From Ruminococcus sp. (lineage in GTDB: Bacteria > Bacillota > Clostridia > Oscillospirales > Ruminococcaceae), in NCBI GenBank assembly GCA_017472145.1, contig JAFUQX010000014.1, forward strand, positions 1-64,000: a stretch of 64,000 nucleotides of DNA. Reading direction: 5' to 3'. Below the pieces are notes generated by a model. The model made no database searches, was not told where the DNA came from, and worked only from the letters and a program-made list of their open reading frames with translations. Shown one piece after another: positions 12,958-42,414 of the stretch. Position 1 is the stretch's first letter, and every line of letters begins with the position of its first letter. The position numbers and the translations under genes were made by a program.

Positions 12958-12990
12958 TGCATCACACTCCAAGGGCTACTTTTCATTTGC

Positions 12991-13770: not shown

Positions 13771-13796
13771 ATCACACATTCCTTTTTATTACTATA

Positions 13797-18707: not shown

Positions 18708-20330
18708 TCAAAGCTCCTTCTCTATGCAGTACTCGACCATGCTGAAATCCAGATCGCTAAACGCCTCAAAGAGATCCTCACCGCTCTGCAGAGCCTCGAT
18801 ACATCTCTGGACCTCCTTTTCAAAGCCGTTTCTGTTCAGGAATTCAAGGGCTCTGCCATAATTCTCCTTTTTCATATCCAGTGCGTAGATAATAAAGGGA
18901 ACAGCGTATTCGCGCTTCACTCTTGAATCGATCAGATGCGGCTCGTCCTCCGCAGAGGTTCTGGCATAGTTTTCATCACATATAAATCCGGCCATAATGT
19001 AGTAATTATTCTCGTTTGTAGGATCGCAGTTAATGCTGTTCTCTGCTTCTATGTAAGCCTGAGCATAGTTCTCCGCTGCACAGTGTATTCTGTACAGTAC
19101 ACGGTAGGTCATATCATCATTCGGCGCATACTCAAGAGAGACTCTGCACGCCTTTTCTGCTTCCTCCAGCTTGTCCAGATTCAGATAGGCATTCGCTACA
19201 TTTCTGTGAATAAGTGCATGCATTTCCCTCTGACTATACTCCTCAAGCAGAGTCTCAGAAAGCTGAATGATCTCATTGAACTTCTTCAGCTTGATGTACA
19301 CATCGAAAAACGCACGAATCACTCTTGAGGATACATGCTTGGTCAGCTCATACTTTCCATTCTTCCGGCTCACACCGATCATCTCATTGGCGATTACAAA
19401 GGCCTGCTCACGGGTTTTATAGTCTCTTCCAAGCTCATCGGCAAAGTATACGTTCAGCTCCTCGCTGTCCGGATGCAGCTTTATCGCACATTCCAAAAAA
19501 ACCTTTGTCAAAGGCGGAATACCAATCTTCTCTCTGCACAGCGCATAGACGATTTTACAGTCTGTTTCATCCAGGTAGCCCTTTTCCAGTACATCAGCCA
19601 GGAAATCTGCAAACTCCTTCTTCTGCCCCTTCAATGCAAATTCTTGCAGTTTCTTTACAGCCTCATCACTGTAATAGACACTGTTCTCTATAGCCTCTGC
19701 GAAGATCTTTCGGATATCCTCCGTCTGCCCGGATTCATCCGCATCAAGACCCGCTTTTTCAATCCGGTCCTTAAGCTTTACATTTTCCTCCTGAAGCTGC
19801 TTGATGCGTTCAGCCTGTTTATTATCCTGATCAGACTCACGGATATGCAGGAGACTGTCAGGAAGCTCCGTGTACACATCATGAACTGGGCTGTCCGATG
19901 TGGAGGCCGTACTGTTTTCACACACCGTTACCCTTTTCTTAAGCTCCTCAACGATCTTGTCCTCTGAATAGCTTTGCATCCAGTTCTTGTCATAATACAG
20001 GATATTCATTCCATAGATGTCAAAGGGCAGCTTTGTACTCGGCTCCGCCCCCTGCTCCCGCTCACACATGATGATCGTACCATTCCGATTCATGGTATGA
20101 CGGATTCCAAGCTCATAGGCCACATTCCAGTTCAGTCCGGACAGATCTGCAATCACAAGCTCGGATTCAGCAATGTTCTGTATGACATTCTTCATAACAT
20201 GTCCGCCCTGACCGGTCATATCCTGCCGGATACACTCATAGCCCTTTTCTTCAAGTGCACGCTTGATGATCATAGAGTACACTCTATCATAGTCCTTCGC
20301 ATAAGGCATCATTACAAACGCTTTTTTCAT
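18708..20330 (-). CDS. Nucleoside deoxyribosyltransferase/TIR-like protein with TPR repeats
   Basis: A 540-residue protein. Residues 1-110 form a Rossmann-like domain opening KKAFVMMPYAKDYD, with ADLSG (61-65) and NVAYELG (69-75), a pattern shared by the nucleoside 2-deoxyribosyltransferase and TIR-like families seen as NAD- or nucleotide-degrading effectors in immune systems. A coiled-coil-like stretch follows (about 170-195), then TPR-like helical repeats (about 330-450). The start at 20330 has GAGGAGG 6 bp upstream. It is divergent from dndC, its promoter facing away across a 357-bp gap. An effector or sensor role is inferred; catalysis is unproven. Confidence 0.65.
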   Translation of the reverse strand: MKKAFVMMPYAKDYDRVYSMIIKRALEEKGYECIRQDMTGQGGHVMKNVIQNIAESELVIADLSGLNWNVAYELGIRHTMNRNGTIIMCEREQGAEPSTKLPFDIYGMNILYYDKNWMQSYSEDKIVEELKKRVTVCENSTASTSDSPVHDVYTELPDSLLHIRESDQDNKQAERIKQLQEENVKLKDRIEKAGLDADESGQTEDIRKIFAEAIENSVYYSDEAVKKLQEFALKGQKKEFADFLADVLEKGYLDETDCKIVYALCREKIGIPPLTKVFLECAIKLHPDSEELNVYFADELGRDYKTREQAFVIANEMIGVSRKNGKYELTKHVSSRVIRAFFDVYIKLKKFNEIIQLSETLLEEYSQREMHALIHRNVANAYLNLDKLEEAEKACRVSLEYAPNDDMTYRVLYRIHCAAENYAQAYIEAENSINCDPTNENNYYIMAGFICDENYARTSAEDEPHLIDSRVKREYAVPFIIYALDMKKENYGRALEFLNRNGFEKEVQRCIEALQSGEDLFEAFSDLDFSMVEYCIEKEL

Positions 20331-20564
20331 GTGAAACCTCCTCAATATACATACACCCGTGCAAATCGGTATTTCGTATATTTAGTATAGCATTTTACCA
20401 AAAAAATATGCATGTACTATTTTTAAACCACAGGTAAACATTTATATGGCACTTTTGCCCATATTGATTCGACAGTTCCAATTTAAGTGATTTTTTCTAT
20501 TTCCGCTGATGTCCCAGCCGAATATAGGCCCTGCTTCTTTTTCCATAGGGCGTCTCTTTCTTGG

Positions 20565-20593
20565 TTGAATTTTTCCGATAGATGTGGTATAAT
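20565..20593 (+). promoter_or_regulatory. Promoter of dndCDEA
   Basis: TTGAAT (20565-20570), 17-bp spacer, TATAAT (20588-20593). Transcription would start near 20600, giving a leader of about 88 nt that contains the inverted repeat at 20618. Confidence 0.75.
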
Positions 20594-20617
20594 AGAAAAA
20601 GTACAAATCGAAATGTG

Positions 20618-20650
20618 ACCCTTGAATGCACTTGTGCTGCATTCAAGGGT
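20618..20650 (+). promoter_or_regulatory. Perfect inverted repeat in the dndC leader
   Basis: ACCCTTGAATGCA and TGCATTCAAGGGT are perfect 13-bp arms around a 7-nt spacer, placed about 18 nt after the predicted start of transcription and 37 bp before dndC. No T-run follows, so it is not a normal terminator. It could be an operator for a repressor or an mRNA hairpin limiting dnd expression. DndB, which represses dnd genes in some bacteria, is not encoded here. Confidence 0.6.
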
Positions 20651-20687
20651 TATCATAAGTGCGAATAGAAAGCAGCAGGTAAATAAA

Positions 20688-22154
20688 ATGGCGAATCTAA
20701 CAAAAGAAGATATAAGAGCGGTTATAGAAATCATCAAGGAGCTGTACCTCGAAGATATGATTCCTTGGATCTGCGGCTACAGCGGCGGCAAGGACTCCAC
20801 GGCCGTCGTTCAGCTCGTGTGGTATGCACTCCAGGAGCTGCCAAAGGACAAGCGGAAAAAGACGGTTCATGTCATCAGCACCGACACACTGGTTGAATCT
20901 CCCGTCGTTGCGATCTGGGCGGCCGAGTCCCTGAAAAAGATGGAGCAGACTGCAAAAGAGCAGGGCCTGCCTATTGTTCCGCACAGACTGACTCCCACAA
21001 CGACAAATACATTCTGGGTAAACCTGATCGGACGCGGTTATCCGTATCCTCGCCGTGATTTCCGCTGGTGTACCGACAGAATGAAAATCGATACTTCCAA
21101 CCGCTTTATCAAGAGCATCCTTGATGCGGAAAGCGAAGCGATCATGGTGCTCGGCTCCCGCAAGGCCGAAAGCACTGTACGTAAGGCAGTTCTTGAAGGA
21201 TATGAGAAAAAGCGATACAGAGCGCATTTAAGCCCCAATGGATCATTCCCGAATTCATATGTTTTTACACCGATCGAAAACTGGCTGAATGACAATGTGT
21301 GGCAGTATCTCGTACAGGTTCCCAATCCCTGGGGACATTCCAACAAGGACCTTCTGGCCATGTACAGCGGGGCCTCTGCGGATGGTGAGTGTCCCCTCGT
21401 TATCGACTCATCTGCTCCCAGCTGCGGCAACAGCCGTTTCGGCTGCTGGGTATGTACCATGGTTACAGAAGATAAGTCCATGGCTGCTATGATTCAGAAC
21501 GATGAAGAAAAAGCCTGGATGCTGCCCATGCTCGAATTCCGGAATGAGATCGCCGGTGATTGGCAGACTGACCGTGACCGCAGAGACTTCCGGAAGAGAG
21601 ACGGCCGTCTTCAGTGGTATAACAACCGGCTCGTCCATGGGCCATATACCAAGGAAACAAGAGAATATTTCCTGCGAAGGCTTTTAGAAACAGAGCTTCT
21701 GGTTCATGAGATCGGCCCGGATGAGATTAAGGACGTCCCCCTGATCACGATGGAGGAGCTTCAGTTTATCCGTCAGCTCTGGCTCGATGAATTTCATGAG
21801 TTTGACGACTCTCTGCCCAGGATCTATGAGGAAGTAACCGGAAAGAAGTATTCAGACAGCATCATCAGTAAGAACAAATACTTCGGTGCACTGGAATCAG
21901 AGCTTCTGAAGGAAGTCTGTGCAGAGCTTTATCCCGATGAGCAGCTGCTTGCAGAAATGCAGAGAGCACTTCTGGATACAGAGGCCAAGGCCGCTGCCAT
22001 TTCCAACAAGCGCAATGTGATTCTGAATTTTGAAAAAGAAATCAAGAAGGCTTTTTACAGAGACGAAACAGAGGCCGAACAAATCGCCGAAGCCCGTGCG
22101 CACAGGATCATTGGTATTATGGATGATGCAGGCCCGGATGATTTTGTGGATTGA
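20688..22154 (+). CDS. dndC: DndC, DNA phosphorothioation sulfurtransferase (PAPS reductase-like)
   Basis: A 488-residue ATP-pyrophosphatase/PAPS-reductase-like protein. The PP-loop SGGKDS lies at residues 32-37, and cysteines in RWCTDRM and in SCGNSRFGCWVC are placed to hold the iron-sulfur cluster known in DndC. It hydrolyses ATP and passes sulfur from DndA toward the DNA backbone. The start at 20688 is chosen because the earlier ATG at 20622 sits inside the inverted repeat; the ribosome binding site is weak, suggesting low expression. The stop overlaps the dndD region (TTGA). Confidence 0.93.
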   Translation: MANLTKEDIRAVIEIIKELYLEDMIPWICGYSGGKDSTAVVQLVWYALQELPKDKRKKTVHVISTDTLVESPVVAIWAAESLKKMEQTAKEQGLPIVPHRLTPTTTNTFWVNLIGRGYPYPRRDFRWCTDRMKIDTSNRFIKSILDAESEAIMVLGSRKAESTVRKAVLEGYEKKRYRAHLSPNGSFPNSYVFTPIENWLNDNVWQYLVQVPNPWGHSNKDLLAMYSGASADGECPLVIDSSAPSCGNSRFGCWVCTMVTEDKSMAAMIQNDEEKAWMLPMLEFRNEIAGDWQTDRDRRDFRKRDGRLQWYNNRLVHGPYTKETREYFLRRLLETELLVHEIGPDEIKDVPLITMEELQFIRQLWLDEFHEFDDSLPRIYEEVTGKKYSDSIISKNKYFGALESELLKEVCAELYPDEQLLAEMQRALLDTEAKAAAISNKRNVILNFEKEIKKAFYRDETEAEQIAEARAHRIIGIMDDAGPDDFVD

Positions 22155-22165
22155 GGTGCGTGAAA

Positions 22166-24151
22166 ATGTATTTTACAAAGGTTGAGCTTCATAATTTTGG
22201 TATATATAAGGGCACTCACGAGATGTGTCTGACAGATAAAATCGGCAATAGAAACATAACGCTTGTCGGAGGCCTGAACGGCCGCGGCAAAACGACCTTT
22301 CATGATGCCATTCTGATCGCGCTTTATGGCAAGCAGGCTTTGAAGTACATACAGGAAAAAGCACGATCCTACGACAAGCTTCTGCTTGACCATATCAATA
22401 AGCACGCAACAGATGATGAGACCTATGTTGCAGTCTCCCTTTGTCTGGATGACGGCACACAGCTCCGTGTAAAGCGGGTCTGGACGGCCAGGGGGCGGAA
22501 AATCGAGCAGGCGACGATCGTTGAAAAAAACGGTGTGGTCGATAAGTACCTGGGCGAAAGCTGGAGCTATTATATCGAAGAGATCCTGCCGTTTGGCATT
22601 GCACGATTCTTCTTCTTCAACAATGAGAAAATTACCCAGCTGGCGGACGATACCTCCTTTGAGCAGATCAAAAGCTCCATCAAGTCTGCAATCGGTGTCT
22701 CCACCATTGAAAAGGCGATCGAGCACACGGACGAAGTGATCCGCCGCAAAAAAAATGCACTGTCTGCGTTTGAAAGCAGTCAGGAGAATGTGGGGTATCA
22801 GGAGGTTGAAAGGCAGATTACAGATATCGACGCTCGTCTGGACGAAGCGGACCGACAGGCCAATGAGCTGGAGCGCAAATGCGAAGCCCTTGCTGCTGCA
22901 CTGGAGGCCAGAGAAAAGGATTTCTGGTCATCCGGCGGCGATCTGAGCCGTAACCGTGAGGCTATAAAGCTGGAAATGCAAAAGCTTTCTTCAGAGGTCG
23001 AAAGAGTCCAGGAGGAGATCCTGCAGCTGACAGCCGAAGCCTCTACCCCTCTGTTTATGTGCCGCAGTCTGGTGAAGCAGTCATATGATGATGCATGCTC
23101 CTCCCAGCAGTCTGAAGCAAAATCGTATTCGCACAGGATCATCATGGAGCTTCATCAGCAGATCCTGGAGCGGCTGGCCGACTGCGGACTAAGCGCTCCG
23201 GACCTGAAGAACGTCAAGGACATCATTGATGATATATTGGACGGTCATACATCTGAAAATACAGACCGCAGGCCGGTTCAGAATATATCCGCAGCAAGCA
23301 TGATGCTCTATCAGCATCTGATCGCAGAGGTATTCCAGAGCCTTGCACAGCAAATCGAAACGCACATCAGCCGTGTTGATGCGCAGGAAAGCGAGCTGAT
23401 GAGCCTGGACGCCCATCTTGGTGCAGCCGATGAAAAGACGCTTGCTATGCAGCTTTTCGAGACGATCAAAGCGATCGAAGCCGATAAAGCGCTGGCCGAT
23501 GCTGAATACCAGCGTCAGCTTGATTCGATCGAAAGCCTGAAGCGTCAGCGTGAAACGCTTGTATCCAGACGGATTCAGCTGCTTAAGACGATCGCAGAAA
23601 AGGAACATGCAAATGATGATAACGCCCGGATCATCCGATATGCGGCCATGTCCATGGAGGTTTTGCAGGAGTTCAAGGTCCGGCTGCAGCGTAAAAAGGC
23701 AGCCCGGCTTTCCGGCACGGCCACGGACTGCTTCCGTGCACTTGTGGAAAAAGACTCCCTGGTGAGCGAGATCCGTATTGACCCGAGCACCCTGGATGTT
23801 ACCATTCTCGACCTGGATGGAAATGAGCTGTTAAAGAGCCAGCTCTCAGCCGGTGAACAGCAGATGTTTGCGATCTCGATCGTATGGGCTCTTGCCCTGA
23901 CATCCGGTTATAAGGCCCCGGTCATCATCGACACGCCTATGGCCCGTCTGGACTCCTCTCACAGAGCCAACTTCGTGACCAGATATCTGCCGGCTGCAAG
24001 TTCGCAGGTAATGGTGCTGTCCACTGATGAAGAGGTTTATGGACGCTATCTGGATCTGATCCGTGATAATGTAGTGGATTCCTACACGCTCCTCTATCGT
24101 GAGGAGGAGCAATGTACGTCCATTGTTCATGGATACTTCGGGGAGGTGTAA
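22166..24151 (+). CDS. dndD: DndD, SMC/Rad50-like ATPase of DNA phosphorothioation
   Basis: A 661-residue ABC/SMC-type ATPase. Walker A GLNGRGKTT is at residues 36-44, a long coiled coil fills about residues 190-540, the signature LSAGE is at 560-564, and Walker B VIIDTP lies near 586-591. DndD is thought to alter DNA structure or provide nicking energy during sulfur incorporation. The ATG at 22166 has GAGGTG 7 bp upstream; the frame also opens at a TTG overlapping the dndC stop. The four dnd genes are tightly packed and translationally linked. Confidence 0.93.
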   Translation: MYFTKVELHNFGIYKGTHEMCLTDKIGNRNITLVGGLNGRGKTTFHDAILIALYGKQALKYIQEKARSYDKLLLDHINKHATDDETYVAVSLCLDDGTQLRVKRVWTARGRKIEQATIVEKNGVVDKYLGESWSYYIEEILPFGIARFFFFNNEKITQLADDTSFEQIKSSIKSAIGVSTIEKAIEHTDEVIRRKKNALSAFESSQENVGYQEVERQITDIDARLDEADRQANELERKCEALAAALEAREKDFWSSGGDLSRNREAIKLEMQKLSSEVERVQEEILQLTAEASTPLFMCRSLVKQSYDDACSSQQSEAKSYSHRIIMELHQQILERLADCGLSAPDLKNVKDIIDDILDGHTSENTDRRPVQNISAASMMLYQHLIAEVFQSLAQQIETHISRVDAQESELMSLDAHLGAADEKTLAMQLFETIKAIEADKALADAEYQRQLDSIESLKRQRETLVSRRIQLLKTIAEKEHANDDNARIIRYAAMSMEVLQEFKVRLQRKKAARLSGTATDCFRALVEKDSLVSEIRIDPSTLDVTILDLDGNELLKSQLSAGEQQMFAISIVWALALTSGYKAPVIIDTPMARLDSSHRANFVTRYLPAASSQVMVLSTDEEVYGRYLDLIRDNVVDSYTLLYREEEQCTSIVHGYFGEV

Positions 24152-24154
24152 ATC

Positions 24155-24544
24155 ATGATCATAAAGCATTTCAAGCTTTCTCAGCCTGAAAAGGAAAGAC
24201 TCATCCGTATCAAGGCCAAAACCGGCATCCAGAACTGGAATATCCTGTGCCGCTGGGCACTTTGCTGGTCACTTGCAGAGCCTTCTGTCCCCGGCGGTGT
24301 GGATCCGCTCTCCGACAGCAATGTTGAAATGGACTGGTCCACCTTTGCCGGTGAATATTCTGAAATATACGAAGCGATCCTCCGCCAGCGCTGTATAAAC
24401 GATGGCCTGGGCGATGATGAAAAGACCCTTGTCAAGTATTTCAGGCTGCATCTGAGCAGAGGGATCAACCATTACAGCACCAGAGATGTTCTGAAAAGCT
24501 GCTCAGACCTGCTTAAATCTGCCCTTCTAAAGGAGGAGAAATAA
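24155..24544 (+). CDS. dndE: DndE, DNA phosphorothioation protein
   Basis: A 129-residue protein in the expected position and size for DndE, which binds nicked DNA as a tetramer in the phosphorothioation complex. The N-terminal LSQPEKERLIRIKAKTGIQN and the NWNILCRWALCWSLAEPS segment match the family. GGAGGTG precedes the ATG. It lies 3 bp after dndD and overlaps dndA by one base. Confidence 0.9.
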   Translation: MIIKHFKLSQPEKERLIRIKAKTGIQNWNILCRWALCWSLAEPSVPGGVDPLSDSNVEMDWSTFAGEYSEIYEAILRQRCINDGLGDDEKTLVKYFRLHLSRGINHYSTRDVLKSCSDLLKSALLKEEK

Positions 24545-25677
24545 TGGCTGTATATCTGGACTATAACGCTTCTGCGCCGATCGACGAGCGTGTTCTCGAG
24601 AAAATGACAGAGGTCTACCGCTTTCATTATGGAAACGCAGACAGCAGAACGCACGTTTTTGGCACGGACGCAAAAGAGATCGTCTCTGCATCAAGAAGAA
24701 CCCTTGCAGAGCTTTTAGGGGTGGACAGCACAGATGTTTTCTTCACCAGCGGATCTACCGAAAGCAACAACATGGCGATTCTGGGACTCCTTGACTATGC
24801 ACTTGAAAGCGGACGAAACCATTTCATCACCACGTCCATTGAACATAAATCCGTTCTGGAGGCCATGAAGCATTTGCAGGAGAAGGGATGCAGGGTCGAC
24901 TTTGTATCGCCCGACGCCTCCGGACGTATAAAAGCCAGCCAGATCCTTGATCTGGTAACGGATAAAACGCTGCTTGTCTCCCTGATGCACGTGAATAGTG
25001 AAACGGGTGTCATTCAGCCCATTGAGGAGATCGGCGCAGCCCTGGCTGAAACGAAAACCTACTTCCACATTGATGCCACGCAAAGCTTCGGGAAGCTGAA
25101 TGACTGCTTGAGGAACACCAGATATGATATGCTGAGCGTGACGGCCCACAAGCTTGGCGGCCCGCAGGGGGTGGGCGCATTTATCCTCCGCCGGGACCGT
25201 ACCTACAGACGGCCGCCCATCAAGCCGCTTCTGTATGGCGGACAGCAGGAACGCGGTTATCGTCCTGGTACAACGCCTGTCGCACTGGTGGCCGGCTTTG
25301 CACTCGCAGCAAAGCTGTGTGATCAGGAAGAAGCACGGCATATGGAAAAGTGCAGTGCCATAAAAAAAGACTTCCTGTCCGCTGTAGCTGGTCTGGAATA
25401 TACCTTGAACGGCGACCAGAAGCACGTCCTGCCCACTACGATCAACATCAGCTTTCACGGGGTGGACGCAGAAGGTATTTTCCTTGCAGTTAAAGAAGAT
25501 TATGCATTTTCAAACGGCTCGGCCTGCAGCTCGGGAAGCCATGCGCCAAGCTATGTACTGACCGCTATGGGGCTGGATGAACGCCGTATCAGTGAAGCCG
25601 TCCGGATCTCATGGAATCACAATACAGAAGCAGATTTCACAGCACTCGTAAACTATATAAAGTCTATGACGGATTAA
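24544..25677 (+). CDS. dndA: DndA, cysteine desulfurase
   Basis: A 377-residue PLP-dependent IscS/NifS-type cysteine desulfurase supplying sulfur to DndC. The PLP lysine is K203 in TAHKLGG, the substrate-side His is within IEHKS (about 100), and the catalytic Cys is C328 in GSACSSGSH. It starts within TAATG, overlapping the dndE stop by one base. Having dndA last (order C-D-E-A) is the arrangement reported for archaeal DndCDEA-PbeABCD loci, in contrast to the common bacterial dndA/dndBCDE layout. Confidence 0.93.
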   Translation: MAVYLDYNASAPIDERVLEKMTEVYRFHYGNADSRTHVFGTDAKEIVSASRRTLAELLGVDSTDVFFTSGSTESNNMAILGLLDYALESGRNHFITTSIEHKSVLEAMKHLQEKGCRVDFVSPDASGRIKASQILDLVTDKTLLVSLMHVNSETGVIQPIEEIGAALAETKTYFHIDATQSFGKLNDCLRNTRYDMLSVTAHKLGGPQGVGAFILRRDRTYRRPPIKPLLYGGQQERGYRPGTTPVALVAGFALAAKLCDQEEARHMEKCSAIKKDFLSAVAGLEYTLNGDQKHVLPTTINISFHGVDAEGIFLAVKEDYAFSNGSACSSGSHAPSYVLTAMGLDERRISEAVRISWNHNTEADFTALVNYIKSMTD

Positions 25678-25687
25678 GCGCAATAAA

Positions 25688-25731
25688 AGACTCTCGCCCG
25701 GGGAACGATAAGCCCGGACGAGAGTCTTTTT
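25688..25731 (+). terminator. Terminator between converging dnd and helicase operons
   Basis: AGACTCTCGCCCGGG pairs with the GCCCGGACGAGAGTCT arm and is followed by five T on the plus strand. The stop of the minus-strand operon is only 2 bp further on, and the same hairpin may also stop transcripts from that side, though its minus-strand T-run is weaker. Confidence 0.8.
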
Positions 25732-25732
25732 G

Positions 25733-26398
25733 TCAGAATCTGATTTTCAGCTTGCTGGTGAGCCGCTTCTCCTGAAGCCAGGTCAGAATGCCCGGGGTAA
25801 GATCCGCAGCGGTAGCCTGCTGAACGGACACCTTCTTCAGGAAGCTCTCGATTTCAGGATTCAAAGAAAATGCTTCGGTGATTTTTTTTGCCGCAGCCAC
25901 ATCGGCCGCCAGACTTTTTACCGCCCTGACAGACGGTTCTCCAGCGACAGTCCTGGTGATGTTATCTGCAAGGGCCCCGGCCTGCCCGGGATCATCCGAA
26001 AGGCCGCCTATCATCAACAGATAGCCCTTTGTCCCCTCCGCATATGCAGCTGACGCCTCCTTCCAGACGATTTTTATCTGAACCGCTGCCGCATCCCCCT
26101 TGGCCTTCAGAACACGCACCATATCTGCGGTCAATGCTCCATCAGAGACACCTCTTCCACAGTTATTGACACATTCCAGCAGCTCATCCCGCAGCTGGGC
26201 CGCCATGACCGGATGATCTACGATCCCCTTTTCTTTCATGGCCGCTGCGCATTCCAATATATTCTTCAGCTCCTGGCTGGCTTTGTTCAGCTGCGCAAGC
26301 GCATTTCCATAAGCCTCATCTGACTGTCTTTGTTCCTGTGCGTCTCTTTTATGCTGAATCGCAGAAATACTTTTCCCGATCGTTTCAGTCAGCAGCAT
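25733..26398 (-). CDS. Unknown helical protein at the end of the defence operon
   Basis: A 221-residue protein with no recognised family: no signal peptide, no clear membrane segment, mostly alpha-helical, with an alanine-rich middle and a basic end (LTSKLKIRF). The start overlaps the upstream ATPase gene by 14 bp; GGAGGTG lies 9 bp before the ATG at 26398 (an ATG at 26404 is also possible). Coupling to the ATPase suggests the products work together. It is the last gene of the seven-gene operon. Confidence 0.6.
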   Translation of the reverse strand: MLLTETIGKSISAIQHKRDAQEQRQSDEAYGNALAQLNKASQELKNILECAAAMKEKGIVDHPVMAAQLRDELLECVNNCGRGVSDGALTADMVRVLKAKGDAAAVQIKIVWKEASAAYAEGTKGYLLMIGGLSDDPGQAGALADNITRTVAGEPSVRAVKSLAADVAAAKKITEAFSLNPEIESFLKKVSVQQATAADLTPGILTWLQEKRLTSKLKIRF

Positions 26399-29300: not shown

Positions 29301-29528
29301 GCCGCGAACGATGATCAGTCTGTGTGCATTCCGGGGATTATAAACGAGGTTATCGAATATCTCCTCCTCTGTCATGTGCTTTGGCGCAGACTCGGTTTTG
29401 CCGCCCAGGTATACATCCAATTGAGAGAATGGCATATGCGTCGCTATAAAGTATGCATCCTCCGTTGCCATGTCATCTGTCTTAATAGCGTAACGCTCCA
29501 TTACAGAGCGATATTGTTCCCAGCTCAT
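26385..29528 (-). CDS. Large P-loop ATPase, DpdH-like, of the phosphorothioate-linked operon
   Basis: A 1047-residue ATPase. Walker A GDNGTGKS is at residues 76-83 and a Walker B-like LTLFIEDF lies near residue 310; the rest is helical with no recognised domain. Its size, N-terminal P-loop and position after a DpdG-like protein match DpdH, and comparable proteins occur in Pbe-type modules linked to phosphorothioation. The ATG at 29528 has GAGGAGGTG upstream, better placed than the GTG at 29534. It overlaps the previous gene by 4 bp. The role (motor or sensor of unmodified DNA) is inferred. Confidence 0.7.
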   Translation of the reverse strand: MSWEQYRSVMERYAIKTDDMATEDAYFIATHMPFSQLDVYLGGKTESAPKHMTEEEIFDNLVYNPRNAHRLIIVRGDNGTGKSHLIRYLKARLENSASTVYDPAKEQLIFLRRLNNSVRGVFSQLLEQQVIRDPEVEEKLRRFVRSSDSRDEASFKTEILFAYVAAVSNDLSGSVYKPVICRDIASYLSDSRVREHLLREDGAVARCYNIITAPSNQVLKDTKVFSPTDFLDERGKSSIIKAVKRQGDPQASDFAATLLEDDSEIDRLVNYLNRFTREVIQRCADISSESTKSVFEQLRRELKRQGRNLTLFIEDFTGFTGIDTELITVLSTEHGGDYSDLCRVTAIIGITNDYFDQFRDNFKDRVTHQISVTDRSYGTNEFLIQMAGRYLNAIYCDPAALRDWERNGAALEDLPISTFRPPCAWETVKIAGRDVTLYPFNSQALTALYEGLIVKSPRAFLKEVLRAQLKEYFDGKIYGDGWDFPLNPKHVQMHKGEHASAIDRLEGLSSKDRSRLKSVFALWADGTAAGVKEADGAITFGGLNKAFLDDIGLSQFNGIGAIVDQTTGESAAPQSVPAPDSDSVSEAVRPAEARKSVSRAEQDYIRFQKDIDAWYSSGAPLQYHADYRKMLQSFICGDNKQCGAVNWQDIGVPAYVAAERLSDISCFSIEGQDNAPDPEKVLVHMERSAESRDALQALIKLRYFKGWDFDGSAYYQQRLLTWLERNKAAIIEKVTAANDQQQLSVIKWCLALQYLRAMIFGRRADTGSPAEAVKSLFVPFRKDDQIRRETKEWNDLVQFVLSRNPEFDSALAMLQKSSAATMGAIQLSRDTSDRRFYRGDELIEAAEQLIACGWDIESELPADIPDKHLLYNPASLLKKLYPKIRSVMAAERKHADAAAARLTEWIGELNQENLIRTLASVQELFRTFNANGILGSSALRIRFEKPPVEMARDVMKWVTVLTCNAEDMPVQQLSAYSGNALNSLCDFLRDIQTIAQLAEQEEARAKKELAKISTFTGMEAISEAARACMEALYDQLEGMEVYDDAAD

Positions 29529-30328: not shown

Positions 30329-30340
30329 GCGGATCCCTCC

Positions 30341-35800: not shown

Positions 35801-36056
35801 TACCGCGTCCCCAAGGCCCTTCGACCGCACCGCCGGGCGCTGCTTCACAGCGCGTAACAGCATCCGCCCGGTATACATCATGCTGAAAGAGATCCCCATA
35901 ATAGTCCCTGCTGCCCAGCAGATCGTGCATCTGAACCCTGACCGCATCTGCCAGTTCATTATATGCAGCAGCCTGCGCAAGAACAAAAAATCTCGGATGT
36001 TCCCTGTCCCCTTCCTCGATCACGACCGGACAGCGGTAGTAGCATCCTTTTAACAT
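32832..36056 (-). CDS. SNF2-family helicase/translocase, DpdE-like
   Basis: A 1074-residue Swi2/Snf2 ATPase. About 175 residues of unknown N-terminal sequence precede Walker A DEVGLGKT (199-206), the DEAH-box position reading DETH (283-286), LLLSATPIQDR, and the helicase C block DETGGEGRNFQNAE and QRIGRLDRLGR. A long C-terminal region follows. The architecture fits DpdE/HepA-type translocases that track along double-stranded DNA. AAAGGAG precedes the start. It lies 47 bp after the AddB-like gene in the same operon. Confidence 0.85.
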   Translation of the reverse strand: MLKGCYYRCPVVIEEGDREHPRFFVLAQAAAYNELADAVRVQMHDLLGSRDYYGDLFQHDVYRADAVTRCEAAPGGAVEGPWGRGTIVTRAKESCSEDQPYWYWIQLPSGKYVKACETELRIEYSQMNYAPEKQLRAYEFQHPTWFMNYLKVSRNRHLVSHATYGFHVLAGCRAYLMPHQISTVARCFETRPVRYMLADEVGLGKTVEACSILRILVSENQSLRVLIVVPGALISQWKNELHYKYGLNAEAADTGAKLCLLPMEELDASGALLRADWDLAIVDETHRLLEHESWYQKIEAVSRSVEHILLLSATPIQDRSEEYRRLLALLSPEQYAGMSPDRFAWMVKKQKRIQKAVNQQLGRLDRYEEYSDIIIDKLKEIAKTLEDSTLNKLAASIDQTAADKGLEQVRQALAYICENYRVERNVIRNRRQLITERMSRRTLQAVPYTPLSLNENYNEIGVIQNTLAYLSENGEEDKEYVTQAAIPLLAALFSSPWAFEEALHEQGIEDDVLLEGVSAWKSQAENEHALVNAALDEDPDRIKGRLMTAMNYIDQETDILDSSKCKIVVFTAHNATLSAFLKLFRSRYTAMGIHAVAFGKHMSRTELEDSVYAFQNDPDCRVIVCDETGGEGRNFQNAEMILHLDMPWNANALEQRIGRLDRLGRDPDMDVRSVVLYAEHSVEEQLFRIWRDGMKLFEQSLSGLEIITGELNGLIAEALLDDYYTGLTNAFDDILEQAEEMRESVEDEQDFDLGAALYRPLSQGIDHILNMYASREDHLFASAMLGWGEQAGLHAEEPTSAGLIEFRENAFRVKAARQSLFVPPDWERYDHSSILLREGKLLGSFDRRTAALREDILFFAPGDPVYDSILSNAAGCSRGRCAAIAAAGRFNYDGIVYIYNVEPQIDGLLEAGMGLEILSQYKMYLPLEQIMISMPLTAESRKVSEQDVIRTLLSLTGSNAEHLGRRSAGRMSLSPLERFMVQTPPGQWEPLVDRCSAAAYKKAVAAMQEASDLASAKKEMQRVLNGYRAECMYFERDKRIADEKVRIFNAVWKALTSARPVLDAVCFLRVRKNG

Positions 36057-36103
36057 GTGCAGTTTCTCCTTTCTCTGTTCGGATCTGCATAAGCATTCCG
36101 CCT

Positions 36104-38995
36104 TCAGGCTTCAGCCGAATCTCCCGTAAGATAGAATTCCATGCAGTTTCCCTTGTGAGAGCAATAATGGCACCAGTCCGAAGGAATGGCCGCTTTTCCT
36201 TTGTCTTTGCTCTGGCTGATATAGCACTTTACCTCATCCTGAAGCGCACGGGCCTGCTGCTCATAGGGCTTATTTCCGGACTCCGGAAGCTTATACAGCG
36301 AATATTCTTTTTTCGGGTACTTCCGGACGGCCAGGTCCTCAAAGCTGCTGTAGGGATTTTTGCGCTCTGATTCGGAGATGTCTATAACAAATTTTGCAGC
36401 ACCGAATTGCTTCCGCATCTGCATATGCACTGGCTTATAGGGCGCAGCCGCAGAGCCATATCCACGATCGATCATTCCGTGAACAAGGTAATTCCATGCG
36501 CGCCGCTTTAAATCATAGATCTCCGTGGCCTTCCAGAATGAAAAATACGGCTCAAGCTTCCGGCTTTCCTGATCAATAAACCGCTTCACACATTTTAACG
36601 CCTCTTCCCGCTGCATACCGCCGATCCGCTTCCACACGGCCTCTATCAGGAGATTTTCATAATACTTCTGGAATAAGAAGCTTCCATGGATCACAGGCTC
36701 ATTCTCCATGACATAATCAAGGAAATATCGATAGGGGCATAAAAACATATCCATCATCTGAAAACGGTCGTATGGAATGTCCTTCGTCTCCTCCGGCCTG
36801 TCGCAAACCGCAAATGGTGCAGGAGTATTTATGTTCTCGATAATCCCGGCTTTCGGCTGCAAACCAAGGATGGACAGCAGCGCATACGGCTCAGTCGTTT
36901 CATCCCCGTACTGCTTCACAAAGCTCAGGCGGACATTTCCCCGGTTGTAATACAGGCCATAAAAGAGCGCATATCTGAGAAATTCACTCCTCCTGTCCAG
37001 GGTCTTGCAATAGACCTGGAACGGGAGATCCTGCGGCAGATAGGCCGCACTCAGGAATTCATCTGTCAAGGGCCAGGGAAGCTGATCATTCACCGTCTGA
37101 TTCATATCCCGGTCAGAAAGGCCGGCGAAGTGATAGGTCTTGATCTCCTCTTTTTCAAACTGCCGCTTGCTCTGGAGAATGTCACCATCGATCTGCTCAA
37201 AGTTCTTTACGATCCAGTCCGGCTCCTGCTCCGTCTGATCCTTTTGCTTGAGGTAATAATGGATCCCTTCCTTCAAATCGTGGAAGGTTCCGGAAAACGC
37301 AGAATTCCGGGGCTTGATCCGCTCAAGCCGGGCCTGAAGCGCCGAGATCAGCTCCCGTTCCTTTTCGCTGGCAAAAGCCGGCTCCCGCTGCTTCAGAAAT
37401 GCTTCCAGATTTTCAAAGTGCTTTCCAAAATTGATGAAGTCTTCCCGGGTATGATCCAGTGCAAACAGGCCGGCGGCAATCTCATTGATCTCTCGGACAG
37501 CCTGAACCAGAGCAGCAATATCTTTCCTTGAAACCTTGTATTTGTTGTAAATTACAAGTGACCTCAGCGAAAAAACAGCATCTGTGCTCTTTGCATTGAC
37601 TATGCGGTCATAATTACGGAGATAATTCCCTGCGATCTCCCGCTCAAATTCTTCATAGGCGGTGATATGCTCAAAGAGAACCTCTGTATTGCAAAATGTA
37701 CGAAGCAGCACCTCTCCGGGAGCAGATTTAAGAATGTTGGAAGATAAGCACTCTTTTATGGCGGCGCTGTCAAAGCGGATACAGCCCTTCTCATAATCCC
37801 ACAGACGATAAATCGCAGAGAAGAACTGTCCTATGGGATAGGAAAGAAAATGTCTGTCCTGAGAAAACTCCGGGTAATAGATGCTCAGAAGCGTATGAAT
37901 GTCCCGATTGGCTGTATAAACCTGTTCATCCAGACACCGGAGAACACCTGCATTATCCCAGACCTTCTGACCCCGTTCCATAACGTTCTGAGCATCGTGG
38001 TATTTATTTTTTGCAGCCTCTACATGATTGGATACAAAATGAGCGTATTCTGTGATATTGGCAAATTCCATCCATTCTATGCTCTTATACAGCTGACTCC
38101 ATTGCCGCAGCTGCATGCGTCCGGCCGTGTGACCGTTCTCGCACAATTCACCCAGTGCACAGGCCAGGGCATTGCTGGGATTCTGCATGGTGGGCAGATG
38201 ATATTCCGGAACAGCCGTATCGTGATGGACCTTTGCATCAAAACAACTGTAGATATCATTCCAGGATGCGTATATCTGGGAATACTTCTTCTGATAGTTG
38301 AACAGAAAAATGATCGTCAGGCCCATTTTCTCCATGGCAGTCAGAAGCCGGAGCTGGGCCGGCGTAAACTGATGAACACCATGAACAACGATCGCATCAA
38401 GCGGCTGCTGCCTTGTTCTTTCAACCGCCCGTTCACAGCGCCTGATCTCCCGCTGCGGACCCCGGCACGCCTTAGCCTCCGCAGCCGCCAGATCCACAAC
38501 GATCTCCTTCAGCATGTCCCTGTCGGGAGCAGGCGGAAACGCAAAAAGTCTGCTTTTCTGCGCCTTGCTCAGAATATAGACAAACAGCTGCTGTTCCAGA
38601 TTGCCTTTCGTCCGATCCACCGCAGAAGCCTGTATATCCAATTCAATAAAGAGCCGGACTGCTTCCAGAAAATGGGTCTGATTCTGAGACAGCGCCATAT
38701 GGAACGTTTCATCGATCCGGCCCTTATCCAGCAGCTGTCTGAAGGCCGAGGACAGAGCGCTGTATTGCTGTACACGAAGACTGATGTTGTCTGTCCAGCT
38801 TTTATACACCTCTTCATGTCCGACAAGAGAGTCCAGGGTACAGATAAGTCCCCGGATGTTATCCCCAAGCACATTCTTCAGGCCATTTACAAGTGTTCTT
38901 GCACTGCAAAAATGAGGAAGTGCTGATATTTCGCTCCAAAAGTCTGCCTTCTCCAGGTTGTAAGGATCTGCATATGTATAGATTTTATATGGCAT
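36104..38995 (-). CDS. AddB/RexB-like protein with iron-sulfur cysteines
   Basis: A 963-residue protein resembling the AddB subunit of AddAB helicase-nucleases. The cysteine set C753, C942, C945, C951 (C-x188-C-xx-C-x5-C) matches the AddB/Cas4 iron-sulfur staple around a PD-(D/E)xK nuclease domain. The expected nuclease D-x-K segment is not clear: the nearest match reads YSLYKLPESG rather than DYKTG, so activity may be lost. The N-terminal part resembles the inactivated helicase domain of AddB but with no Walker A. It is followed 47 bp later by the SNF2 gene and preceded 3 bp earlier by its likely partner helicase. Confidence 0.65.
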   Translation of the reverse strand: MPYKIYTYADPYNLEKADFWSEISALPHFCSARTLVNGLKNVLGDNIRGLICTLDSLVGHEEVYKSWTDNISLRVQQYSALSSAFRQLLDKGRIDETFHMALSQNQTHFLEAVRLFIELDIQASAVDRTKGNLEQQLFVYILSKAQKSRLFAFPPAPDRDMLKEIVVDLAAAEAKACRGPQREIRRCERAVERTRQQPLDAIVVHGVHQFTPAQLRLLTAMEKMGLTIIFLFNYQKKYSQIYASWNDIYSCFDAKVHHDTAVPEYHLPTMQNPSNALACALGELCENGHTAGRMQLRQWSQLYKSIEWMEFANITEYAHFVSNHVEAAKNKYHDAQNVMERGQKVWDNAGVLRCLDEQVYTANRDIHTLLSIYYPEFSQDRHFLSYPIGQFFSAIYRLWDYEKGCIRFDSAAIKECLSSNILKSAPGEVLLRTFCNTEVLFEHITAYEEFEREIAGNYLRNYDRIVNAKSTDAVFSLRSLVIYNKYKVSRKDIAALVQAVREINEIAAGLFALDHTREDFINFGKHFENLEAFLKQREPAFASEKERELISALQARLERIKPRNSAFSGTFHDLKEGIHYYLKQKDQTEQEPDWIVKNFEQIDGDILQSKRQFEKEEIKTYHFAGLSDRDMNQTVNDQLPWPLTDEFLSAAYLPQDLPFQVYCKTLDRRSEFLRYALFYGLYYNRGNVRLSFVKQYGDETTEPYALLSILGLQPKAGIIENINTPAPFAVCDRPEETKDIPYDRFQMMDMFLCPYRYFLDYVMENEPVIHGSFLFQKYYENLLIEAVWKRIGGMQREEALKCVKRFIDQESRKLEPYFSFWKATEIYDLKRRAWNYLVHGMIDRGYGSAAAPYKPVHMQMRKQFGAAKFVIDISESERKNPYSSFEDLAVRKYPKKEYSLYKLPESGNKPYEQQARALQDEVKCYISQSKDKGKAAIPSDWCHYCSHKGNCMEFYLTGDSAEA

Positions 38996-38998
38996 ACG

Positions 38999-41900
38999 TC
39001 AGGCCTCCGTTTCAATCAGATTCTGCCATGAAAAATTCTGTTTTCCTTCGATCTCGATCCAGGAGAAGGAACGCATGGCCCGTGTCATTGCAACATAAAG
39101 AACTCTCGCTTCTTCTCTGCTTTTTTCAGCTTTTTCGATGTGCTCATCATAGTACGTGTTTTGTACAGCAGCGCCGGTCTCAGGGATATTCAGACTGTAG
39201 CCGATACGATACCGATCGCCGTCCTTCTCCGTGCTGATATGAAGCTGGGATTTCTTAACCATGTCGATCGGAGCCGAGCAGAAGGGCAGAATAACATGTC
39301 CGTACTCCAGCCCCTTGGCCTTGTGCACCGTAACACACTGAATCGGGATCTCAGTCTGAGACGAAGCCGGAATGCGGCTGTCAACAGACACCTGTGAAAC
39401 AATGCAGCTGCTGAGACGTTCCTGAAGTGTATTGATCGTAAGCCGATCCACATTACAGGCCTGGATCAGCTGCTCAAACAGCAGGTCCACGTTCAGCTGA
39501 TAATAGTGCTGCTTCCAGGGATCCTCGCTGAAATTGCGCCACGGCTCCAAGGTGTTATAGATCTCATGAAGTACCTGCAGGACAGGATCGGTGCGCAAGC
39601 CGGCCACAATATATTCCCATTTGCTGCACGTATCGACCGCCCCAGCCAGCTTGGTATTCATAAAGCGGATCAGATAGTTTACCTGCTCCCGTTCATCCAC
39701 CCGTGCTTTCCAGCCATCGTTCCGGATCCTCCTGCGAAGCGCAAAGAGATTCGATTTGGGAATATCCAGGCCGAAAAAGCTGGAGGTCGCCAGATTGTAC
39801 AGATAATCCGCTTCATCAAAATGAACCAGCGCATTGACCAGGATCATCATATCCAGTGCAGGCTGGGACATGTACAGATCGCCGCCGGTGTTGGTCTGGA
39901 TGCTGACCTCCGGGAAAAGCCTTGCACACTCTGTGCGCACCATCTCTGCCTGCCAGTTTTCTCTGACAAGGATGGCTATACTGCGCTCCTTCGGCGAGAG
40001 CTTCCTGTGAAGCTGTTCTTCCTCATACTGAATCCGCTTCTGAAGCCGTCTGATCTCTTCCACAAGCGCAGGGATACGCAAAGCATCATTTTCTATAGAA
40101 AGCTTCCTGAAAAAGCGTTCCTTGCAGGAGCTGATATATCCATTATAATCCCTTGTACCGATCAGCCGGTCCTTTGATGCATCATAAGTAAGCAGCTCAT
40201 CCGGCCTGGCTCCCCAACTGGAGAAAGAAAGGTCAAACAGGTTCAGCAGGTCCGTATCGGTACGATAATTTCTTTGCAGCGAAAATTCAAGCCATTGGGA
40301 AGGATTTTCATGAATTTTCAGCTGATCAAAGGCCTTTTCCTTTGCGCCTCTGAAACGGTAGATGCACTGCTTGATATCGCCCACCAGGAACATCCGGTAA
40401 TCCAGCAGCCGGGCCAGCATCAGCAGGGATTCGATCTGCGTATCGTCCGTGTCCTGGAATTCATCCACAAACAGGAACTGCAAAGCGTCCTTGTCCTCTT
40501 TAAGCTTACGGATTCTTCCTTCGCTTTCAGGCCTGCTGATGAATCGATTCAGAATGGACATCATGGAACTCAGGTGGAGACGGTTATTTTGCAGCAGCTC
40601 CTGATCATACTCCCGCTCAACAGCTGGAATCACGGCCGCAAGAAGCGCATGCAGCTCCCCGTGCGTATCCTCCGGTCTGAGGAGACCAAAATCGCCGGCC
40701 TCGATAGAACCGATGTCGATGCTCTTGTTATGCAGCTTTCCGATGAAGTCAAGAATGCTGTCCCGAATGGCATAAACAGGCAGGCCCAGCTTATCGGTAA
40801 AATCAGCACCGTACTGAAGCCTTTTCTGATGGATATAGTCATCCAGAATATCGGAGATCTTTCTGCGCCGGTAAAACTCACTGGACGTGATATCCACATC
40901 GATTCCATAGCCAAAGGACGTACCCAGCTGTGCGATCAGCTTTTTTGCGTAGGAATGGATCGTACTGATCTGCATACTGCTGATCTGAGAGATCATATCC
41001 AGATACTCCACACAGGAGGTGACCAGATAACAGTTCCGGAAATAGGCCCTCAGCTTTTCCGACATCTGGTCGGCCGCTTCATTGGTGAAGGTGATCATCA
41101 CGATCCGCTTTGCCATTTTCCGGAGAGGAACCTTCTGAGCGTAACAGATAAAACCAATACGGGAGATCATTGTATAGGTCTTGCCTGTACCTGCACCGGC
41201 CCGGATCACGATATTCTTTTCAGGCGCAGCATGCTCGACCAGATACTGCTCTGCATTAAACTGGCTTACAGCTCCCAGCTGCCTGAGAATGCTTTTTTGA
41301 GAATCCTCCAGCTTTCCGTTGCGCACGATAAAGGAGTCCACATTCTGATCAAACGGCTCACTTAATACGCTCATAGAGCAATGAAAGCACATGAACGAAT
41401 CAGCGTCCGAGGACAGCTGCGGAGAGTGAGAAGCCTGGTCGTCAAATGCAATTGCAATATTGTCCCGATCCCGTACCAAGCCGCGCTGAGAGAGGGCCGC
41501 ATCAAGCGCTCCGGCAACAGAGAGCAGCTGTGCTCTGCTGGAAAAAACGCAATACAGCTTGCAGCCCTGCAGGTATTGTTCTGTTATATCCTTAATATCT
41601 GTTTCGCTGAATCCATCCCTGCTGTTCAAATAGTAAAACCGGGAATAATCATGCGAGTGATGAGCAGCCGCAGGAGGTGCGCCGGCATCGGCTCCTGCTT
41701 TGTCATCCGGATCAATGTCCGTCTCAAAAAGACTGCGTACCTCCAGCATAGTCTGACAGTCAAACGGAGTCCGTTTCCAGCTGTTCACTTCTCTGAGGGC
41801 CTGATCCAGCTTGTTAAAAAATGCAGTATTATCAGCCAGGTCTTCCTTGAGGATCGTGAAGCGTTCTTCCATCACGACATCCAGGCGGAGGGATCTGTAA

Positions 41901-42280
41901 TATGCCTTTGTAACCTGAGGCAAGCATACCATTTGATAAACAAGGGGAAATTTTCCAATGCTCTGGCGGATATACCGCTCAATAGAGAACCGGTATCCCC
42001 TGGCCTGCTTCTGCGGCGATGCAGACACTTCGCCGTCATCCGTTCTGATAAGGACAGCTTCGTTGTTTTTTACACGCAGAATATTTTCTTCCCGCCAGCC
42101 CTTCACCTCGACCACAAGAATCCCTTTTTCAGGCATCAGGATGCAAACATCAAATTCTCTCCCAAAAACCTGTCTGTTCCAATAAATGATATTTGTATCG
42201 TCAAGATATTCCTGCAGCCTGGTGACAAACAGCTTCTCACCATAGTTTTCGGAATGGCCCGCTCCGATCAGTCTTCCCAT
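38999..42280 (-). CDS. NERD nuclease domain fused to UvrD/AddA-like helicase
   Basis: A 1093-residue fusion. The N-terminal NERD domain has the PD-(D/E)xK-type residues D44, E58 and K60 (EFDV...VVEVKGW). The helicase has Walker A AGAGTGKT (361-368), FVDEFQDTDDTQ, VTVHKAKGLEYGH and YVAMTRAMRSF, so both parts look intact. The start at 42280 is chosen for GAGGTGA 10 bp upstream; an in-frame ATG at 42337 has no such site and would add 19 residues. It is the first gene of the operon. With the next gene it forms an AddAB-like pair, separate from any housekeeping AddAB. Confidence 0.85.
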   Translation of the reverse strand: MGRLIGAGHSENYGEKLFVTRLQEYLDDTNIIYWNRQVFGREFDVCILMPEKGILVVEVKGWREENILRVKNNEAVLIRTDDGEVSASPQKQARGYRFSIERYIRQSIGKFPLVYQMVCLPQVTKAYYRSLRLDVVMEERFTILKEDLADNTAFFNKLDQALREVNSWKRTPFDCQTMLEVRSLFETDIDPDDKAGADAGAPPAAAHHSHDYSRFYYLNSRDGFSETDIKDITEQYLQGCKLYCVFSSRAQLLSVAGALDAALSQRGLVRDRDNIAIAFDDQASHSPQLSSDADSFMCFHCSMSVLSEPFDQNVDSFIVRNGKLEDSQKSILRQLGAVSQFNAEQYLVEHAAPEKNIVIRAGAGTGKTYTMISRIGFICYAQKVPLRKMAKRIVMITFTNEAADQMSEKLRAYFRNCYLVTSCVEYLDMISQISSMQISTIHSYAKKLIAQLGTSFGYGIDVDITSSEFYRRRKISDILDDYIHQKRLQYGADFTDKLGLPVYAIRDSILDFIGKLHNKSIDIGSIEAGDFGLLRPEDTHGELHALLAAVIPAVEREYDQELLQNNRLHLSSMMSILNRFISRPESEGRIRKLKEDKDALQFLFVDEFQDTDDTQIESLLMLARLLDYRMFLVGDIKQCIYRFRGAKEKAFDQLKIHENPSQWLEFSLQRNYRTDTDLLNLFDLSFSSWGARPDELLTYDASKDRLIGTRDYNGYISSCKERFFRKLSIENDALRIPALVEEIRRLQKRIQYEEEQLHRKLSPKERSIAILVRENWQAEMVRTECARLFPEVSIQTNTGGDLYMSQPALDMMILVNALVHFDEADYLYNLATSSFFGLDIPKSNLFALRRRIRNDGWKARVDEREQVNYLIRFMNTKLAGAVDTCSKWEYIVAGLRTDPVLQVLHEIYNTLEPWRNFSEDPWKQHYYQLNVDLLFEQLIQACNVDRLTINTLQERLSSCIVSQVSVDSRIPASSQTEIPIQCVTVHKAKGLEYGHVILPFCSAPIDMVKKSQLHISTEKDGDRYRIGYSLNIPETGAAVQNTYYDEHIEKAEKSREEARVLYVAMTRAMRSFSWIEIEGKQNFSWQNLIETEA

Positions 42281-42414
42281 AAATAGAATGTCACCTCGTA
42301 AATCATAGGAAGATACATCGATCCTCCCTATGCTCATAATCAATCTTTTTCTGTCCGGCCGCCTGCATTCCGATCCAGCAAACGCACAGGCCCGGACAGA
42401 CAATATCAAGTTGT

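Follow-up and report, generated by a model that had tools for sequence, protein, structure and literature searches.

The stretch analyzed here (the window) comprises 64,000 nucleotides of Ruminococcus sp. (assembly GCA_017472145.1, contig JAFUQX010000014.1, positions 1 to 64,000 of the forward strand) and carries two operons that face each other (Table 1). The plus strand holds the DNA sulfur-modification genes dndC-dndD-dndE-dndA (20622 to 25677), and the minus strand a seven-gene partner operon (25733 to 42409) in the order sF, sE, dpdE, dpdF, dpdG, dpdH, dpdI, with sF first and dpdI last (the names sE and sF were coined in the present analysis). A previous reading based on the sequence only had described a seven-gene operon converging on the dnd genes and ending 55 bp from the dndA stop, and the coordinates agree, since dndA stops at 25677 and the partner operon ends at 25733. 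Within the partner operon, neighboring genes overlap or are spaced by no more than 50 bp. The gap between the two operons folds as a strong two-way terminator at -28.7 kcal/mol (z of -6.3), and none of 200 shuffles folded equally well. The promoter candidate before dndC is weak, given that the scan yields about the same number of sites as in shuffled sequence (6 versus 5.7).

Table 1 Features of the two convergent operons in the window, by position
Feature	Positions	Strand	Basis
Sigma-70-like promoter candidate before dndC, TTGAAT-17-TATAAT	20565..20593	+	Consensus scan 10/12, extended -10
dndC, sulfurtransferase; likely ATG 20688	20622..22154	+	NCBIfam DndC; SGGKDS and Cys motifs
dndD, ABC ATPase	22151..24151	+	NCBIfam DndD
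dndE	24155..24544	+	Pfam DndE 1.8e-38; NCBIfam
dndA, cysteine desulfurase	24544..25677	+	Pfam Aminotran_5 4.7e-65; NCBIfam DndA is best model
Two-way terminator hairpin common to both operons	25686..25731	.	Sequence and RNA fold
dpdI-like, 221 aa, final gene of the partner operon	25733..26398	−	NCBIfam DpdI E 0.0018; profile-profile
dpdH-like AAA+ ATPase, 1049 aa	26385..29534	−	NCBIfam DpdH 4.6e-77; PADLOC DpdH 3.9e-45
dpdG-like, 267 aa	29525..30328	−	PADLOC DpdG 1.2e-4; profile-profile
dpdF-like RecQ-type helicase, 832 aa	30341..32839	−	NCBIfam DpdF 8.8e-156; PADLOC DpdF 1.7e-129; tree
dpdE-like SNF2 helicase, 1074 aa	32832..36056	−	NCBIfam DpdE 2.8e-106; PADLOC DpdE 1.1e-75
sE, AddB-like, four-cysteine iron-sulfur-type motif, 963 aa	36104..38995	−	Invariant cysteines; weak AddB profile match
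sF, NERD nuclease domain fused to UvrD-type helicase, 1136 aa; likely ATG 42337	38999..42409	−	Pfam

The modification half is complete, as previously claimed: all four dnd reading frames are open and the key residues were confirmed as motifs, namely, SGGKDS and the Cys motif in DndC, Walker A and the signature in DndD, and SNGSAC in DndA. Three of the proteins scored above the NCBIfam cut-offs (DndC, 614.9 bits versus 290.4; DndD, 431.5 versus 245.85; DndE, 117.3 versus 71.85); for the fourth, the NCBIfam DndA model was the best one, at 413.2 bits versus a cut-off of 480, and SNGSAC is kept. These catalytic motifs are conserved in the window and in those of its 19 relatives (described below) that cover them, L026 excepted. 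In L026 (Eubacterium plexicaudatum ASF492), dndC, dndD, and sE are incomplete, which may reflect a decaying copy or sequence errors. The reported lack of dndB also held, with no TIGR03233 match anywhere in the genome of the window. Given that the relatives mostly carry dndB next to dnd (13 of the 19: L009, L010, L012, L016 to L024, and L026; the L008 and L015 sequences end at dndC), its lack in the window is a local variant.

The partner operon corresponds to DpdE-F-G-H-I plus two further genes, as judged by family models and profile comparison, and these methods also uphold the SNF2, RecQ-like, DpdG-like, and DpdH-like labels given at first sight. Because the 267- and 221-aa proteins have diverged too far for single-sequence models to be useful, profiles were compared instead; the former matched the DpdG-position proteins of five plasmid loci (probability of 99.7, E = 6.7e-27) and the latter the DpdI-position proteins of five plasmid loci (probability of 98.5, E = 3.8e-15). 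The DpdE-like protein aligns from residue 4 to 1072 with the gene product preceding dpdF in Paenibacillus (34% identity, E = 1e-179). Walker A of the DpdH-like protein is kept in 20 of 20 sequences, and the helicase, ATPase, and NERD motifs are all intact in the window. Among solved structures, the DpdF-like protein matched RecQ-family helicases, and the DpdH-like protein gave a single match, to an insect storage-type protein (E = 0.003).

The E-F-G-H-I order is also that of the Dpd operons on plasmids of Enterobacter, Agrobacterium, Nostoc, and Paenibacillus. In Enterobacter cloacae pPOL9A, it is followed by J, K, D, DpdB, and DpdA; in the Agrobacterium vitis and Nostoc plasmids, the annotation lists the gene in the I position as hypothetical (the model confirms DpdI for Nostoc); and in Paenibacillus pART37, E, G, and H were assigned by tblastn with the window proteins. 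Only the F-G-H-I positions, beside a large AAA protein, were seen in plasmid islands of Methylobacterium and Caulobacter that have DpdA, indicating that the Dpd core itself varies. The writer enzyme DpdA (NF041059) had no match in the genome of the window, which is 94.3% complete, and 19 of the 20 genomes (the window's and those of its relatives) were without one. Neither DpdD nor DpdJ nor DpdK was present among the matches listed for the proteins scanned at the window locus.

The two additional genes encode a second helicase and a protein without an obvious family. sF combines an N-terminal NERD domain (Pfam, 3.1e-9) with UvrD (7.3e-39), scores as well with recB and addA models, and its NERD D...E-x-K motif is kept in all 15 covering sequences, the window among them. 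sE matched nothing in Pfam or NCBIfam, nothing in PADLOC among the matches listed, and no solved structure. Across 16 sequences (alignment A10, 15 systems plus Geobacillus), C753, C942, C945, and C951 are invariant, the last three following the AddB spacing C-x2-C-x5-C. The sE proteins of L013 and L026, in which these three cysteines are missing and the reading frames end differently, are included in alignment A4 (19 of the 20 systems formed by the window and its relatives; A5 holds 16 and A7 11) and left out of A10. A profile comparison of sE with six AddB proteins gave one weak collinear motif (probability of 7.3, E = 0.0049), and two of the 19 members gave a PDDEXK_1 match, with an E value of 0.046 at best. 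Four of the 19 (L008, L009, L011, and L020) end in a PIN domain (PIN_4), within a C-terminal extension of ca. 430 to 450 aa. From these sequences, we infer that sE and sF may form an AddAB-like pair in which the NERD domain has taken over as the nuclease and the AddB-like sE has probably lost its own nuclease site. DpdD was considered for sE and rejected, with a probability of 0.1 in the comparison with the Paenibacillus DpdD. The Paenibacillus Dpd island does contain a relative of sE (probability of 98.2, E = 4.4e-14) and, after it, a UvrD helicase in which Pfam detects no NERD. An AddB match (526 bits, below the model cut-off) lies elsewhere in the genome of the window.

Relatives of this pair were also seen elsewhere. 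Geobacillus zalihae plasmid pJS1-2 (L006, 14158 to 21292) carries a distant sF/sE pair (27 and 23% identity) with no match to the Dpd core. The pair adjoins DNA polymerase IV and YolD genes, which also occur near the Paenibacillus (as annotated) and G097 (by eye) loci. An unverified "Bacteriophage sp." record from human feces (MT836883.1, L007) encodes proteins 72 and 68% identical to sF and sE, respectively, and is probably a bacterial contig mislabeled as phage; viral contigs searched with two short patterns each time for sE and for DpdF contained no relatives of either.

The linkage of the two operons is not particular to this genome. One genome per species (84,980 species) was scanned with two short DpdF peptide patterns, a search that is not exhaustive; the seeds were the DpdF of the window and of G097 only, and no dnd sequence was used. 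The scan provided 19 loci, 18 of them new (L016 being the second seed's own locus, G097). Several of the genomes behind these loci are metagenome bins, and cultured carriers include Anaeromassilibacillus sp. An200, Anaerotignum lactatifermentans An390, and Intestinimonas butyriciproducens An565. All 19 loci match sF, sE, DpdE, DpdF, DpdG, and DpdH, with several cut by contig ends and L018 retaining only the tail of sF; DpdI was recognized by tblastn in 12, and in L021, L022, and L025 its position is occupied by a reading frame. The dnd genes were found on the contig of the partner operon in 15 of the 19 loci, so that the pairing noticed in the window extends to related genomes, in three arrangements: convergent (8 loci), downstream in the same direction (6), and upstream (1). 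For L010 and L020, the dnd genes were located on a different contig, no more than about 350 bp from its end, a placement that an assembly break would produce. Altogether, DndE was present in 18 of the 19 scanned-locus genomes and, with that of the window, in 19 of 20. Among 394 genomes of the window's order, DndE occurred in 10 and sE in exactly 2 (the window and G097), both with DndE and a Dpd-type partner. No DpdE-I match appeared at six control Dnd plasmid loci, for which flanks of up to 15 kb were covered on either side. With the DpdH model, the window was the only match among 391 genomes of the class and 398 of the phylum, and these wider samples therefore give no sampling of other pairings in the phylum.

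Some of the related loci carry further genes. In L010, L011, and L020, the dpdI-like gene is followed by a gene with HARE-HTH and Mrr restriction endonuclease domains (domain-tested in L020, by eye in L010 and L011), and L010 also has a GmrSD/SspE-like gene (PADLOC Orf5); these are candidates for additional effectors linked to phosphorothioate (PT). Past the dnd genes of G097 (L005, 11286 to 16511), Cas9-like, Cas1-like, and Cas2-like reading frames were recognized by eye, as in a defense island, and in Desulfosporosinus (L021, 18188 to 19153), a Methyltransf_35 family gene is situated between the partner operon and dndA.

The two halves have also diverged together. Pairwise distances of DndC+D+E and of the six partner proteins correlated with an r value of 0.987 (Mantel p of 0.0001, the floor of 9999 permutations) in 19 systems, that is, the window and 18 loci, L011 being dropped because no Dnd was found there. 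Among the 16 genomes with usable rpoB (L013, where no rpoB was found, and L014 and L025, where it was partial or not recognized, were additionally dropped), r was 0.986, each half was uncorrelated with rpoB (-0.016 and 0.021), and the partial r was 0.987. For instance, L008 and L020 have near-identical systems (distances of 0.04 and 0.02) at a host rpoB distance of 0.39. Published correlations of DndCD, obtained with a different measure, are 0.107 with PbeAC and 0.582 with DndFGH (PMC6459918; here and below, papers are cited for the parts of their text that were available). Given that the relatives were picked by DpdF likeness, this co-inheritance covers their lineage only. A tree built from 29 DpdF proteins, without that of Shinella L062, which is in pieces, groups the window with all 19 loci as a single clade, set apart by a branch supported at 100/99; L011 and L013 are included in this clade without shown linkage. 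Among these proteins, the Dnd-linked clade adjoins the DpdA-linked protein of Paenibacillus. The simplest path suggested by the sequences would be that a Dpd island gained the sE/UvrD pair and later swapped its writer, from DpdA-C to Dnd.

Two further observations involve rpoB. The system also occurs in L015, an uncultured Prevotella metagenome-assembled genome whose rpoB is far from those of L017 to L019 (distance of 0.7), which points to either cross-phylum transfer or a binning error. The window's own assembly has two rpoB genes ca. 80% identical (G000 C72 and C48; L046 and L060), either a paralogue or a mixed assembly.

Gene identities, conserved linkage, coevolution of the halves, a single DpdF clade, and a genome in which no DpdA was found lead us to favor, as the probable explanation, a single PT-based restriction-modification system made from two known halves, a Dpd core with a changed writer. 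Some Clostridia would thus probably have a virus defense system that joins Dnd sulfur genes with the restriction genes of Dpd base marking. DndA would provide the sulfur, and DndC, with the DNA-scanning pair DndD-DndE, would place PT at some short motif of the host DNA. The DpdE-F-G-H-I complex (SNF2 translocase, RecQ-type helicase, DpdG, the AAA+ protein DpdH, and the small DpdI) would then survey DNA for its PT status and pass unmarked molecules to the NERD-UvrD/AddB-like pair for unwinding and subsequent cleavage by the NERD domain, with phage restriction as the presumed outcome. That the two halves are co-inherited suggests one restriction engine serving two unrelated chemical marks. More tentatively, and with slightly less than an even chance in our estimation, DpdE-I may be a mark-independent engine that works on a modified base with DpdA-C and on backbone sulfur with Dnd, interchangeable parts setting what is read; its partner would have switched from base to backbone and then spread in Clostridia. 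If a Dpd core does act with a chemically unrelated mark, swapping of the halves could test which feature of the DNA is read by the core and which of its subunits are required.

Several results weigh against a single system of this kind. None of the NCBIfam equivalog cut-offs was reached by the core proteins (DpdE, 356.7 bits versus 500; DpdF, 520.7 versus 550; DpdH, 260.4 versus 450; DpdI, 18.3 versus 150), and the window protein had no NCBIfam match to DpdG (model cut-off of 80); the core of the window is, by these scores, a diverged Dpd lineage, and its function may have moved. In one of the 20 genomes, G410, a DpdA-like fragment interrupted by an in-frame stop (C9:1951-2526) occurs elsewhere, in addition to the Dnd-Dpd system. 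No conserved E-x-K motif was found in the sE alignment. As for linkage, dnd lies inside a different contig from the partner operon in L013, none was found in L011, where the contig ends, and L026 looks damaged, its DndC lacking the PP-loop part and its DndD the signature. The correlation was lower within the sub-clade of the window (r of 0.697, n = 7) than in the other sub-clade (0.975, n = 5). Finally, in the DndCD tree, the Dpd-linked proteins form one clade with the Pbe-linked L095, a locus of the window's own order, nested inside, in an analysis for which the tool warns of long branches. This nesting implies that Dnd is not welded to the Dpd partner and that at least one further exchange or second pairing took place.

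The sequence-only reading had proposed a gut-bacterial, extended version of the DndCDEA-PbeABCD system, an explanation that now seems scarcely credible. In its favor, the dndCDEA order equals that of Halorubrum, an archaeon with Pbe-type genes after dnd; the top PADLOC model for the window DndD is PbeC (4.9e-223, above DndD at 2.9e-147), a label that may mislead automatic calls; and the other eight DndE genomes of the order, examined as dnd stretches with up to 10 kb of flank on each side where contigs allowed, include five with PbeA-like matches (one of the others has DptG/DptH, two have neither, one of these being a 6.4-kb contig, and DpdE-I was in none). PbeA is described as a PLD-helicase, PbeB as a 66-aa protein, PbeC as an SMC-like ABC ATPase, and PbeD as a 152-aa protein (PMC6459918), with PbeC and PbeD later re-assigned as a CxC-type ATPase and a DndE cognate (PMC10853773). 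A Pbe identity was rejected. Among the matches listed, no model for a PLD-helicase, a CxC ATPase, a second DndE, or the Pbe small protein matched the partner operon, and the Halorubrum and Rhizobium Pbe proteins gave nothing better than an E value of 0.002 against it. The best match of the PbeA model in the window, among those listed, was partial (1.2e-9, in the DpdF helicase), compared with 3.6e-192 in the positive control from the same order, L095. As a query against the 20 genomes, PbeA matched in 6 (at best 4.5e-17, over the helicase part only), and not in that of the window. In L095 (G033, 1558 to 14132), PbeA, PbeC, and PbeD converge on dndBCDEA (PbeB was not detected), and DndC is 58% identical to that of the window. 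Hence, of the likenesses expected from comparing these proteins with PbeA-D and DpdE-H, the one to Dpd stood and the one to Pbe did not; the genes are DpdE-I plus two. The noted lack of dptF, dptG, and dptH was correct. DptFGH, tried as a candidate, was found only as traces in window proteins, i.e., 31 residues at the ATP site of the DpdH-like protein that match the DndF model (5.7e-4, among the matches listed) and dnd_restrict_1 at 0.0011 and 0.0017 in the helicases; Massilia Dpt proteins gave no better than 0.036 by blastp. A DptH protein query, run with no positive control in the same search, had no match in any of the 20 genomes, although the same protein detects DptH in L102 by tblastn.

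The main rival to cutting is a hybrid system with a non-cutting or suicide outcome, which would stall the replication of unmarked DNA or kill or arrest the infected cell, with NERD or, in some relatives, PIN as a back-up effector. Pbe with PT is reported to block replication without cutting (PMC6459918), PIN is fused to sE in four relatives, sE has no conserved nuclease motif, and Rakesh et al., who noted NERD nucleases near dnd genes, propose stand-alone nucleases such as these as suicide effectors (PMC10853773). However, NERD is here fused to a helicase, and all 15 sequences that cover NERD retain its motif, as expected of a working helicase-coupled nuclease; we regard this outcome as unlikely, albeit plausible. 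Two independent defense systems sharing one island seem improbable. PT modules and their partners do recombine elsewhere (the DndCD-PbeAC value of 0.107 cited above), L095 pairs a related DndCD with Pbe, and the halves of L013 are on separate contigs, but the linkage in 15 of 19 loci was found without a dnd seed and in three arrangements, the correlation of 0.987 is independent of the host, sE was found in two of the 394 genomes of the order, both with DndE, and the genome of the window has no DpdA match of its own. A role in repair or recombination, in which ends or gaps made at PT sites are processed, instead of restriction, would agree with the AddAB resemblance of the sE/sF pair and with the helicase-rich gene content. 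This is very improbable, since the genome has an AddB match elsewhere (that of 526 bits, below the model cut-off), Dpd restriction genes lower transformation (PMC12707154), and the distribution is independent of host phylogeny as measured by rpoB. A single PT-based restriction system with a Dpd core thus remains our preferred explanation.

Flanking the two operons are genes of other kinds. Divergent from dndC, a minus-strand gene (18708 to 20345) encodes a protein of 545 aa that begins like a TIR effector (PADLOC, 1.4e-5) and is otherwise TPR-like. It had no match at the 19 related loci or further stretches, many of which stop soon past dndC; on account of this absence, it was not counted as part of the system and is possibly a separate defense gene. 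Upstream of the partner operon, a 325-aa minus-strand protein (42664 to 43641) has only GMP-synthase C-terminal and ATP-pyrophosphatase-type parts, with no amidotransferase domain in Pfam.

In order to place the system among those already described, the closest reference is the Dpd island, with which it shares the same five core genes in the same order (DpdE, DpdF, and DpdH by models, DpdG and DpdI by profiles). In canonical Dpd islands, E-F-G-H-I acts together with DpdJ, DpdK, and DpdD and with DpdA-C, the writers of 7-deazaguanine bases, whereas the window has Dnd as the writer, additional NERD-UvrD and AddB-like genes, and no DpdA found in the genome. Paenibacillus sp. 37 pART37 has a neighboring DpdF branch among the 29 proteins of the tree and an sE relative beside a UvrD helicase, but it has its own DpdA, queC, queE, 6-carboxytetrahydropterin synthase, DpdJ, DpdK, and DpdD, and its UvrD protein lacks NERD in Pfam. 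With AddAB and RecBCD, the likeness consists of a UvrD-type helicase (recB and addA scores) beside a protein with AddB-type cysteine spacing; the differences are the N-terminal NERD of sF, the sE without a conserved E-x-K, and the weak AddB profile match.

The known PT systems share the writer or its gene order and differ in what follows. Dnd-DptFGH has the Dnd writer genes in common with the window, in whose set the DptH query found none in 20 genomes, and DndCDEA-PbeABCD has the dndCDEA order in common, with unrelated partner genes. BREX-Related Capture systems are likewise hybrids that borrow a Dpd component, the Dpd-type transglycosylase; in the text available, they take the writer and join it to BREX and HerA/FtsK parts, with neither Dnd nor a DpdE-I core (PMC12839542). 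No description of DpdE-I serving a Dnd module was found in the available text of the open PMC literature, with subscription papers, figures, and supplements outside this scope (PMC6459918, PMC10853773, PMC12839542, PMC11888242, PMC12707154, PMC11931770, PMC12278908, PMC12948488, PMC10952713, and PMC8569181 included); the data set of Rakesh et al. (PMC10853773) could list such loci unnamed. Many PT-containing bacteria are reported to have no known restriction genes (PMC11931770). If our explanation is true, the Dnd-Dpd combination adds a branch of PT restriction to the three given in the available part of a review, i.e., DndFGH together with its SspFGH homologues, SspE, and PbeABCD.

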